Source: Chloroflexus aurantiacus J-10-fl | GTDB taxonomy: Bacteria; Chloroflexota; Chloroflexia; Chloroflexales; Chloroflexaceae | Assembly: GCF_000018865.1 (NCBI RefSeq) | Contig: NC_010175.1 | Coordinates: 3,472,001-3,536,000 of the forward strand | Direction: 5' to 3' | DNA: 64,000 bases | In this document: piece after piece, positions 56,609-59,444 of the stretch | Layout: each line of letters begins with the position of its first letter | How positions within the stretch are numbered: position 1 is the first letter of the stretch | Notes under the pieces: generated by a model | Database searches by the model: none | Told to the model about the DNA's origin: nothing | Seen by the model: only the letters and a program-made list of their open reading frames with translations | Position numbers and translations under genes: made by a program

Positions 56609-56986
56609 TATTGCGCTAACCAATGACAGCGTATCAGTAGCTATTATCCCATAACGCAGCGCCATGTAGCGCCCACTTCATTTCTCCCGACTATCAGTCG
56701 GCACATAACCAGGGACGTGATTCCTGTGCAGGCAAATACCCTGGCCTGCCCCACCCGGTGATACGGTGTGATCAGGCTGCAACATGCACAGTAGTCTCTG
56801 AACAAGGGTTTGCGCGTGCTATTGGAAAATGAGCAGGTATGCCTGCGCATCACATAACCGTGCAGATGGTGTGCATTCCGGGAACAGAGACCTTGACTTT
56901 TTTCAGAGCCGTGGTACCGTTCATAAGGGAAGAGTTTTTATATTTTGATGATTGACACAGCGATGGTTAACAGAAAGGATTATTCT
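56609..56986. other. Gene-free divergent gap
   Basis: Between dnaN and the pterin genes. A TTGACT near 56893 may be a -35 for the pterin genes, but I see no good -10. No repeat or riboswitch could be recognised. Confidence 0.5.
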
Positions 56987-57811
56987 ATGGTCGTTGCAAC
57001 CCGTCGCTTTGAATTTTCGGCAGCTCATCGCTACTGGCGCGATGATTGGAGTGCGGAAGAAAATGAGCGCGTCTTCGGGCCGTACACCAGCCCATACGGT
57101 CATGGGCATAACTATACACTCGATGTCAGCATTACCGGTGAGCTTGACGAGCGCACCGGGATGGTGATGAATATGACCGAACTGAAGGCTATCGTGAATG
57201 AGGTGCTCGAAGAGTTTGACCACAAGCACCTCAATTACGATACACCTTACTTTCGCGATCAAGTGCCCACGACCGAGAATCTGGTGCGCGTACTCTGGCG
57301 TTTAATTGCAGCCCGCCTGCCTGCCCATGCGCGCCTGAAGCATCTCCGCCTCTATGAACAGCCCGATCTGTGGGCCGAATACGATGGTGTTGGTGAGACC
57401 CAATTTGCTCGCCTGTACACCTTCGCCGCTGCCCATCGTCTGCATGCACCAGCCTTGAGTGATGAGGAGAATCTGGCTATTTATGGCAAATGCAATAATC
57501 CTAATGGTCACGGTCACAACTATACGCTAGAGGTTACGGTACAGGGGCCGATTGATCCGGCAACCGGTATGCTGGTCGATCTGGAGTGGCTTGACCGCAC
57601 GGTACACTCGGTCATCGACCGATTGCATCTGCGCCACCTGGATCGTGAGATTCCGGCTTTTGCCGACCGCCCATCGACCGCTGAGAATATCATCGTTTAC
57701 CTCTGGAATGAACTTGCGCCGCTCCTTGAAGGTCGCCTGGCGCTCTTGCGCTTGTGGGAGACCCGCAAGAACATCTTTAGCTATGCCGGTCCGTCGGTCA
57801 TTCCCGCCTGA
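56987..57811 (+). CDS. Fused tandem 6-pyruvoyl-tetrahydropterin synthase
   Basis: With ATG 56987 (AAAGGA upstream) the protein has 274 residues, twice the family length: two PTPS domains at about 5-137 and 140-270. Zinc His residues are present in both (H14, H39, H41; H150, H175, H177), as are the pterin-anchor region T/STxEN and the late Glu. The second half has the catalytic Cys169 in GKCNNPNGHGHNY; the first has Tyr at that place. The first half has the Asp78-His79 pair (EFDHKHLN); the second has His214-Leu215 there. PTPS converts dihydroneopterin triphosphate to 6-pyruvoyl-tetrahydropterin. folE follows 73 bp downstream. The CNNPNGHGHNY motif is closer to biopterin-type PTPS than to QueD. 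Confidence 0.93.
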   Translation: MVVATRRFEFSAAHRYWRDDWSAEENERVFGPYTSPYGHGHNYTLDVSITGELDERTGMVMNMTELKAIVNEVLEEFDHKHLNYDTPYFRDQVPTTENLVRVLWRLIAARLPAHARLKHLRLYEQPDLWAEYDGVGETQFARLYTFAAAHRLHAPALSDEENLAIYGKCNNPNGHGHNYTLEVTVQGPIDPATGMLVDLEWLDRTVHSVIDRLHLRHLDREIPAFADRPSTAENIIVYLWNELAPLLEGRLALLRLWETRKNIFSYAGPSVIPA

Positions 57812-57884
57812 TGGCACGTAATCCTGTGTTTCGTCGCCGAACGCGCACGTCGCGTTGTTCGTGCCTGTAATGGAGAACACATCT

Positions 57885-58568
57885 ATGTCTAGTAATGGTA
57901 ACGGCTATCACCACCCAACTCCTGAGCTTGATGAGGAGCACTACGAGAGTTTGATCATCCCCGGTCGAGGGAAACTTGAAGGTATGTCATTTAACGCCGA
58001 TCCTCGGATTGAGGAGGCGGTACGGACAATTCTGGCTGCTATTGGTGAGGTTCCGGATCGCGAAGGGTTGCAGAAGACACCGTCACGAGTGGCCAAGATG
58101 TATGCCGAACTGACGGCAGGTTACCACATTGATCCGCAGGCGTTGATCAACGGTGCTGTCTTCAGCGTGGCCTACGATGAGATGGTATTGGTCACCAACA
58201 TCGACTACTACAGTCTCTGTGAACACCACATGCTGCCATTCTTTGGTCAGGTTCACGTGGCCTATATCCCCAATGGCAAAGTTGTCGGTCTAAGTAAGAT
58301 ACCACGCATCGTTGAGATGTTTGCCCGGCGCTTGCAAGTGCAGGAACGGATGACGGTGCAGATCGCAGACTTCATCAATGCCACCCTTGAACCTGCCGGT
58401 GTCGCAGTCGTGGCCGAAGGCATTCACATGTGTGGCGTCATGCGCGGTGTCAAGAAGGCCAATGCCCGCATGGTAACCTCGGCAATGCGGGGCGTGTTCC
58501 GCGAAGACCCCAAGACGAGGGCCGAGTTTATGGCGCATATTAACCGGGTGAATAATCGTCAGGAATGA
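57885..58568 (+). CDS. folE: GTP cyclohydrolase I
   Basis: This 227-residue enzyme makes 7,8-dihydroneopterin triphosphate from GTP, the first step of folate and biopterin synthesis. Signature segments are [37 protein letters not shown] (zinc Cys and His), [21 protein letters not shown] and [14 protein letters not shown] (second zinc Cys). The N-terminal 40 residues are a His/Glu-rich extension. ATG at 57885 has GGAGA nine bases upstream; ATG 57870 would add five residues. Lying 73 bp after the fused PTPS, it supplies that enzyme's substrate. Confidence 0.95.
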
Positions 58569-58748
58569 GTCTTTCGCACGCACCTGCACACGACAGCTAT
58601 TTGCGCTTATCTGCCAGCGCCATGTCCGGGAACCCGGCAGTGTAGCCGATAGGCGATAACAACGTTGAGTCTGCTGTTTCAGCGAAACAGTCTCTTCGCT
58701 AGCCTGAAGCGCAAGTGGCTGTCGTCTATTGCAACAGGACAAGAGAAT

Positions 58749-59444
58749 ATGCGTACCATTCTGATTACCGGTGCTTCACGCGGTATCGGTGCAGCTACAG
58801 CACTTGCATTGGCCGGGCCTGACACTCGTTTAACGCTGGCGGCGCGTGATCGTACTGCCCTCGAAGCGGTTGCCCGACAGGCTACTGCGGCTGGTGCCCA
58901 ATGCCTTGTCGTACCGTGTGATGTCACCGATCCAGCCCAGGTTGCCCCAACCGTTGCTCAGGCTGCTGGAGAAGGGACACTTGATGTTGTGGTGCATAGT
59001 GTTGGTGGGGCTTTGGTAGCACCGCTGGCCGACATTGAACTTCCCGCCTGGGAAGAACACATGCGGACTCAGCTCACCAGTCTCTTCCTGGTTGCGAAAG
59101 CGACTACAGCCCGCATGGATCGCGGTAGCCTATTCATCAATATTGCCTCAGTTGCCGCTCGCCAGGCATTCCCAGGCTGGTCGGCATATGTAGCCGCTAA
59201 ACACGGCGCACTTGGCTTTATGGCTGCCATCCGTGAAGAGCTGCGCCCACGCGGTATTCGTGTCTGTTCGATCCTACCCGCCGCCACCGATACCGCGATT
59301 TGGGATGCCATACCCGGTGACTGGTCGCGTACCAATATGCTACAACCGGGCGATGTTGCTGCGGTCATTGCCGCCCTTGTTGCACTTCCACCATACGCGA
59401 CGGTTGAGGATTTGACGATTGGTCATGTCGCAGGGCGATTGTGA
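58749..59444 (+). CDS. Short-chain dehydrogenase/reductase, possible pterin reductase
   Basis: A 231-residue classical SDR: NADP-binding TGASRGIG (about 7-14) with an Arg after it, NAG-like motif HSVGGAL (about 79-85), catalytic Ser near 131 (IASVAA) and YVAAK (Tyr about 144, Lys about 148). It is the right size for sepiapterin reductase, and its place after PTPS and folE suggests reduction of 6-pyruvoyl-tetrahydropterin. The gap to folE is 180 bp without a clear terminator, so co-transcription is plausible but unproven. The sequence alone does not separate it from other SDRs. Confidence 0.85.
   Translation: MRTILITGASRGIGAATALALAGPDTRLTLAARDRTALEAVARQATAAGAQCLVVPCDVTDPAQVAPTVAQAAGEGTLDVVVHSVGGALVAPLADIELPAWEEHMRTQLTSLFLVAKATTARMDRGSLFINIASVAARQAFPGWSAYVAAKHGALGFMAAIREELRPRGIRVCSILPAATDTAIWDAIPGDWSRTNMLQPGDVAAVIAALVALPPYATVEDLTIGHVAGRL

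Follow-up and report, generated by a model that had tools for sequence, protein, structure and literature searches.

How can a PTPS-family protein work when it carries two PTPS domains in one chain and each of them lacks a different part of the catalytic set? The question is raised by a gene of Chloroflexus aurantiacus J-10-fl that lies in the window, the whole 64,000-nucleotide stretch of DNA analysed here (Table 1). In rat PTPS, the catalytic Cys comes from one subunit and the Asp-His from its neighbour, and a 1995 paper by Burgisser on that enzyme speaks in its title of an "intersubunit catalytic triad". Where a site lies between subunits, each copy should be free after a duplication to lose one part of it, and the copies would then be locked into heteromers. 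We suggest that a ring-forming PTPS subunit was duplicated in this way, and that its composite intersubunit site was then divided between the copies. We consider it likely that the working site is split between the first half (A) and the second half (B) of the protein, wherever the contact between the two lies.

The Gene and Its Catalytic Residues

Translation of the frame gives 274 residues and a stop. Two stretches match Pfam PF01242 (PTPS), with a whole-protein value of 6.3e-65 and 217.1 bits against a cut-off of 22.4, and no other Pfam family was matched in the protein; the TIGR00039 profile gave 152.1 bits against a cut-off of 125.5. The QueD equivalog profile TIGR03367 also exceeded its cut-off (113.2 bits against 89.25), yet the loop of half B, CNNPNGHGH, is like the rat PTPS loop, and the gene has folE and an SDR gene as neighbours. 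The best match to rat PTPS is half B (4.2e-37). A TTG lies in frame at 56945, upstream of the ATG, and the N terminus could be longer if it is used; the matches of close relatives start at the first or second residue counted from this ATG. Loci labelled Chloroflexus are 89-93% identical.

Table 1. Features of the double PTPS locus, in window coordinates
Feature	Position	Strand	Basis
Fused double PTPS gene, 274 aa, two PF01242 domains	56987..57811	+	translation, Pfam, model
Half A, residues 1-133: has zinc His14/39/41, Asp78-His79 and Glu124 but has lost the catalytic Cys	56987..57385	+	alignment, model
Tyr33 codon, aligned with rat Cys42	57083..57085	+	alignment
Asp78-His79 codons, the protein's only Asp-His pair (= rat Asp88-His89)	57218..57223	+	alignment
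Five-residue turn joining A (strand 4) to B (strand 1), residues 133-137	57383..57397	+	model
Half B, residues 138-270: has zinc His150/175/177, Cys169 and Glu258 but has lost Asp-His	57398..57796	+	alignment, model
Cys169 codon, the protein's only cysteine (= rat Cys42)	57491..57493	+	alignment
His214-Leu215 codons, at the place of rat Asp88-His89	57626..57631	+	alignment
folE, GTP cyclohydrolase I (PF01227, TIGR00063), preceding pathway step	57855..58568	+	profiles
SDR-family oxidoreductase (a large family), candidate reductase of the 6-pyruvoyl product	58665..59444	+	profiles

We aligned both halves with rat PTPS, whose catalytic residues we take to be Cys42, Asp88-His89 and Glu133. The Cys position is occupied by Tyr33 in A and Cys169 in B, the Asp-His position by Asp78-His79 in A and His214-Leu215 in B, and the Glu position by Glu124 and Glu258, respectively. 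The zinc-binding triad is present in both halves, as His14/39/41 and His150/175/177. The initial annotation had read this pattern from the sequence, with Asp-His kept and Cys replaced in the first half, Cys kept and Asp-His replaced in the second, and three zinc histidines in each, and the alignment bears it out on every point. The loop motif CxxxxxHGH, which we take to be the mark of biopterin-type PTPS, occurs in half B only. Excerpts of the literature give this motif for COG0720 proteins (PMC5041015) and place the zinc histidines of rat PTPS at 23, 48 and 50 (PMC10767420).

A residue that might restore either half was looked for across the whole protein, and neither a second Cys nor a second Asp-His dipeptide was found; restoration from nearby is thus ruled out. 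Because Cys169 is the sole Cys and residues 78-79 the sole Asp-His, only one Cys/Asp-His combination is available, given the known chemistry: the Cys of B with the Asp-His of A, the reverse of the A-Cys and B-Asp/His pairing that had been named for checking. One-domain enzymes carry Cys and Asp-His together on every domain; here Cys is confined to B and Asp-His to A. Since the set is complete only in the whole chain, we file the product as a PTPS-family protein of inferred PTPS function and not as a canonical PTPS.

The same catalytic residues are found in eight of eight sequences of the genus Chloroflexus, and the pattern is therefore not a quirk of one strain. For half A, dN lay between 0.026 and 0.043 in seven within-genus comparisons, and dN/dS between 0.012 and 0.023 in the six of seven with computable dS, at dS values of 1.6-3.0 that are near saturation. 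For half B, dN/dS was computable in one of the seven comparisons only (0.017). By these ratios, half A is under strong constraint.

Sequences Compared

Relatives were drawn from the best 80 of 133 related loci, together with genome searches and further regions. The 295 chains obtained were reduced to 256 by dropping domains spanning fewer than 75 residues and exact duplicate chains, and near-identical species are still present among the 256 pairs. Each of these chains carries two or three PTPS domains in succession; 145 chains lie in one frame and 111 in two neighbouring frames, and 24 have three domains. Catalytic positions were read in the last two domains of each chain, A and then B. The phylum labels used below are inferred ones, assigned by locus ranges, and the two frames of one Chloroflexota pair (L025) may in truth be a single fused gene interrupted by a draft-genome frameshift. 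As a control we used 56 unpaired domains from these loci, after those spanning fewer than 100 residues had been dropped.

Distribution of the Catalytic Residues in Relatives

Half B has the Cys and the zinc His triad in all 256 pairs and Asp-His in 127, whereas half A has Asp-His in 224 and Cys in 54. Asp-His is kept by A in all 129 pairs whose B has no full Asp-His, and pairs without any Cys or without any Asp-His number 0/256 in each case. The full split, in which A has no Cys and B no full Asp-His, is seen in 110/256; a further 83 show one loss only (the Cys of A or the full Asp-His of B), both halves are complete in 31, and in 32 pairs A has no Asp-His and B is complete. The reverse split, with A lacking Asp-His and B lacking Cys, occurs in none of the 256. 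The 110 fully split pairs comprise 50 from Acidobacteriota, 26 from Poribacteria, 24 from Zixibacteria, nine from Chloroflexota and one from Armatimonadota, and those of Acidobacteriota are two neighbouring, often overlapping frames. The initial annotation had proposed that each working site forms between an A half and a B half. The comparison of 256 pairs supports this well, but not as a universal rule, since Armatimonadota differ (see below).

In the unpaired domains, Cys and Asp-His are both present in 44 and both absent from 11, and are thus kept or lost together in 55/56; the remaining domain has Asp-His only, and Cys alone occurs in none. That exceptional single copy, L283, comes from a contig of 4456 bases, where a partner could lie out of view. 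As judged from these alignments, Cys and Asp-His travel together in one-domain relatives and separate where two copies exist; linkage in unpaired domains and separation in pairs are what is expected of a site assembled from two subunits. Four one-domain homologs (L320-L323) have a TEP(T/V)HGH loop and HY or NY at the place of Asp-His, like the Glu-type motif of COG0720.

The zinc histidines are kept by A in 230/256 pairs, and in 230/232 of the two-domain pairs. This retention exceeds what would be predicted for a plainly dead site, and half A may have a structural role or a second activity.

Structural Model and the Probable Place of the Working Site

An AlphaFold2 single-chain model built from 30 sequences was of high confidence (pLDDT 93.6, pTM 0.89). 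In it, the last strand of A (strand 4, residues 128-132) runs through a five-residue turn into strand 1 of B (138-150), and B carries its zinc ligands where strand 1 ends and strand 2 begins, on the edge facing A. Half A matched human PTPS (3i2b_A) with Z 19.6 and half B rat PTPS (1gtq_A) with Z 18.3. The whole chain, residues 1-271, aligned with the tandem T-fold urate oxidase 5y2p_B (Z 13.4, 227 residues aligned, rmsd 4.1 A) and, over 205 residues, with GTP cyclohydrolase IB (8g6c_A; Z 11.2, rmsd 4.5 A); the alignment with urate oxidase shows two T-fold domains side by side in one chain. Bimodular QueF is absent from the structural matches listed, which is no evidence against a likeness.

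We propose that half B binds zinc and carries Cys169, that half A gives Asp78-His79, and that there is one working site per chain. Because the strand order makes the zinc edge of B a neighbour of A in the same chain, we place this site in cis, most likely at the intra-chain contact where strand 4 of A leads into strand 1 of B and the zinc strands 1 and 2 of B would stand beside A. Strand order and residue distribution together indicate that the site is probably located there. The reciprocal site, made of the zinc of A with Tyr33 and of His214-Leu215 from B, would be dead for PTPS chemistry. The same split site could instead form between chains, where the last strand of B meets the first strand of the next chain's A. 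Urate oxidase, the best whole-chain match among those listed, has its sites between chains, with N- and C-terminal strands of two subunits pairing (PMC5138847), and in the three-domain chains described below domains 1 and 2 both keep Asp-His, so that either could serve the Cys of domain 3. Against this, the modelled zinc ligands of B face A of the same chain, and in bimodular QueF, as described in excerpts, the site lies within the chain and the Cys in the C-terminal module (PMC5372742). We think a contact between chains unlikely.

In the published description of PTPS (PMC7546909), two trimers stacked head to head make up the hexamer, which has six zinc sites, and each active site lies between adjacent monomers. 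Two-domain chains can neither alternate in nor fill a ring of three domains, and the fixed A-B order in the ring that the initial annotation had proposed therefore meets a parity problem. This would be resolved by an even-numbered ring, as in urate oxidase, or by a dimer without a tunnel, as described for QueF of Vibrio cholerae (PMC5372742). In urate oxidase, the two tandem T-folds of a chain form one eight-stranded sheet and two chains make a barrel (PMC5138847, in part).

Three-Domain Chains

The 24 distinct three-domain chains of Zixibacteria (L078, L154-L177) have Cys only in the last domain (24/24). Domain 3 has lost Asp-His and domains 1 and 2 have kept it in 24/24; domain 1 is without the full zinc triad in 11/24, and Arg replaces the first zinc His of domain 2 in 24/24. 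The Zixibacteria genome search gave near full-length matches in 24 of 118 genomes. Such a chain could by itself be a ring of three. A model of L078 from a 15-sequence alignment (pLDDT 84.0, pTM 0.80, parts of domain 1 below 50) has short turns between domains; ring closure is not visible in it, and we therefore do not use it as proof.

A wider proposal is offered tentatively, as a possibility that falls a little short of probable. A-B PTPSs would be old and widespread hetero-ring enzymes, in which the composite site was repeatedly reduced to one polarity in fused, separate and triple forms. Two-domain chains would no longer form the canonical three-domain ring and would assemble instead into an open dimer or a ring of even number, and the three-domain chain of Zixibacteria would close a full ring by itself, with just one working site in it.

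Exceptions and Covariation

In Armatimonadota (L071, L074, L324-L353), 29/32 pairs have an A without Asp-His and a complete B. Trp stands at the Cys position in 20/32, and half A mostly has DQ, AD or DG at the place of Asp-His. Two cyanobacterium-labelled sequences and one Phycisphaerales-labelled sequence have the same pattern. In the 32 pairs whose A is without Asp-His, an A-B site of the kind proposed cannot be the working one, and on these residues such Armatimonadota-type proteins must work through B alone or through B against B.

A mutual-information scan over the 256 concatenated pairs looks dominated by clade differences. Among 14742 A-B column pairs, A42-B89 had rank 1571 and A42-B88 rank 4690, so that the scan gives no support to an A42-B89 contact; A42 itself scored highest with A89, a position of its own half. 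The Cys position of A is taken by Glu in 27 pairs and by Asp in 8, 35/256 in all. Arg at B89 is always accompanied by Glu or Asp at A42 (13/13, against 22/243 where Arg is lacking); these cases include L140, L146, L150, L153 and others from the Acidobacteriota search. A42 Glu/Asp and B89 Arg perhaps form a salt bridge in the dead site, which we regard as a hint. A sign test of this association found five changes on the tree and four independent pairs, too few for significance. Similar tests gave no information for loss of A-Cys against loss of B Asp-His (five pairs only) or for loss of A Asp-His against loss of B Asp-His (one pair only).

Alternative Readings

The exceptions invite the reading that B acts by itself, using a different base instead of Asp-His, and that half A serves as a pseudo-domain with a structural or regulatory role. 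The invariance of the Cys and zinc triad of B across all pairs suits this, as do the 29 Armatimonadota pairs. However, it leaves unexplained why A retains Asp-His in every one of the 129 pairs with an incomplete B Asp-His and why Cys and Asp-His are linked in unpaired domains, and we hold it to be quite unlikely. Half A might also perform a second chemistry, with zinc and the Tyr, Glu or Asp at its Cys position catalysing another pterin reaction, which would make the protein bifunctional and would be compatible with a split site. The retained zinc triad of A and the 35 pairs with Glu or Asp are in its favour, and COG0720 subfamilies with the Glu-type motif are described as doing other reactions (PMC5041015, in part). 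Yet the residue in Chloroflexus is Tyr, the Asp-His of B, the other part of the site of A, is gone or incomplete in the 110 split pairs, and the Arg at B89 in 13 of the 35 Glu/Asp pairs looks more salt-bridge-like than catalytic; such a second activity strikes us as very unlikely. That each half alone is without part of the known triad would also fit a drifting protein without PTPS activity, but the strong constraint on half A, the identity of the residues throughout the genus and the frequent folE-like neighbour (see below) make a decaying pseudo-enzyme highly improbable. We infer, in preference to these readings, that B's Cys and A's Asp-His act together.

Gene Context and Function

Among the best 80 of the 133 related loci, a folE-like frame is present in 64, an SDR-family frame in 44 and both in 40. 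Since SDRs are a large family, the SDR neighbours need not have one function. The genome of C. aurantiacus has one match to PF00351, the family of biopterin-dependent aromatic amino acid hydroxylases. On the simplest reading of this context, the protein functions in the synthesis of a tetrahydrobiopterin-type cofactor, for which it would make 6-pyruvoyl-tetrahydropterin together with the folE and SDR products next door. PF00351 was found in only 6/28 of the related genomes tested, and we therefore do not extend the tetrahydrobiopterin reading to all relatives, in which use of the cofactor may differ. The genome's only other PF01242 gene (L002, G000:C1:197126-197473) has neither Cys nor Asp-His; it has an FGPATRMHGH loop and HY at the place of Asp-His, and is of a distinct COG0720 type.

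Comparison with Known Systems

Each half shares with the mammalian-type PTPSs (rat 1b66/1gtq, human 3i2b) the fold and the positions of the zinc His triad, Cys, Asp-His and Glu. Mammalian PTPS is a hexamer of identical subunits (PMC7546909), whereas the Chloroflexus chain has two unequal domains and one catalytic set. QueD and other one-domain COG0720 proteins belong to the same family and differ in having a single domain, with Cys and Asp-His either both kept or both lost in nearly all of the unpaired domains above. The bimodular QueF of V. cholerae and E. coli is closer in arrangement, being a tandem T-fold with Cys only in the C-terminal module and a site between modules; it is, however, a nitrile reductase, and it is the QueF motif, not Asp-His, that lies in the module apart from Cys and Glu (excerpts of PMC5372742). 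Urate oxidase is likewise a tandem T-fold chain that matches the model over its whole length and has four sites per tetramer of eight domains, but its sites lie between chains (PMC5138847) and it is a cofactor-free oxidase.

The initial annotation knew of no description of such an arrangement. The principle of dividing a composite site between fused T-folds is in fact already known from bimodular QueF, of the same fold superfamily (PMC5372742, in part). For PTPS, a search of literature with few subscription journals gave no account of a divided site among the top matches listed, and this case appears to be new. Complete, half-reduced and fully split states all occur in this family, which includes fused, separate and three-domain forms, and its one-domain relatives provide a control. 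Annotation that judges the halves singly would call both defective, and the separate tandem genes make the dependence of A on B directly testable.

Evolutionary History

A quick tree of the 256 pairs was built without the catalytic columns. Counted as parsimony minima, with gains and losses treated alike, the fewest changes were 12 for the Cys of A, 26 for the Asp-His of B, four for the Asp-His of A and 23 for the split state; the Cys of B is invariant, and the fused or separate state changed seven times. In a domain tree of 104 rows, with 40 pairs chosen by hand out of the 256, a branch with a support of only 62 set all 40 B domains apart, and 36/40 A domains made up a single open group; the four other A domains, three of them the second domains of triples, fell elsewhere. 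A single ancient duplication with later fusions or fissions would agree with these trees.

Relatives in which both halves are complete had been named as an observation that would speak against the proposal. They do exist (31/256), but in Chloroflexota the complete pairs look ancestral on the tree, and thus reflect history rather than refutation. Sequences from Herpetosiphon and Kouleothrix have both halves complete, whereas Roseiflexus and several others of the order have lost the His of B (to Tyr or Phe) and kept the Cys of A; in Chloroflexus (8/8) the Cys of A has become Tyr and both B residues are lost, and one Oscillochloris-labelled sequence has Gly at the Cys position of A. We read from this tree, which has many weak forks, that in Chloroflexota the His of B would have been lost first and the Cys of A next. 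The order can also be reversed, since in Poribacteria the Cys of A is gone in 39/39 pairs and 13 keep the Asp-His of B.

Two fragments, G013:C62:200925-201124 and G014:C105:79343-79542, each have matches to residues 1-47 and about 238-268 of the double PTPS next to each other. They come from two genomes of a single genus and look like what an internal deletion has left of the gene.
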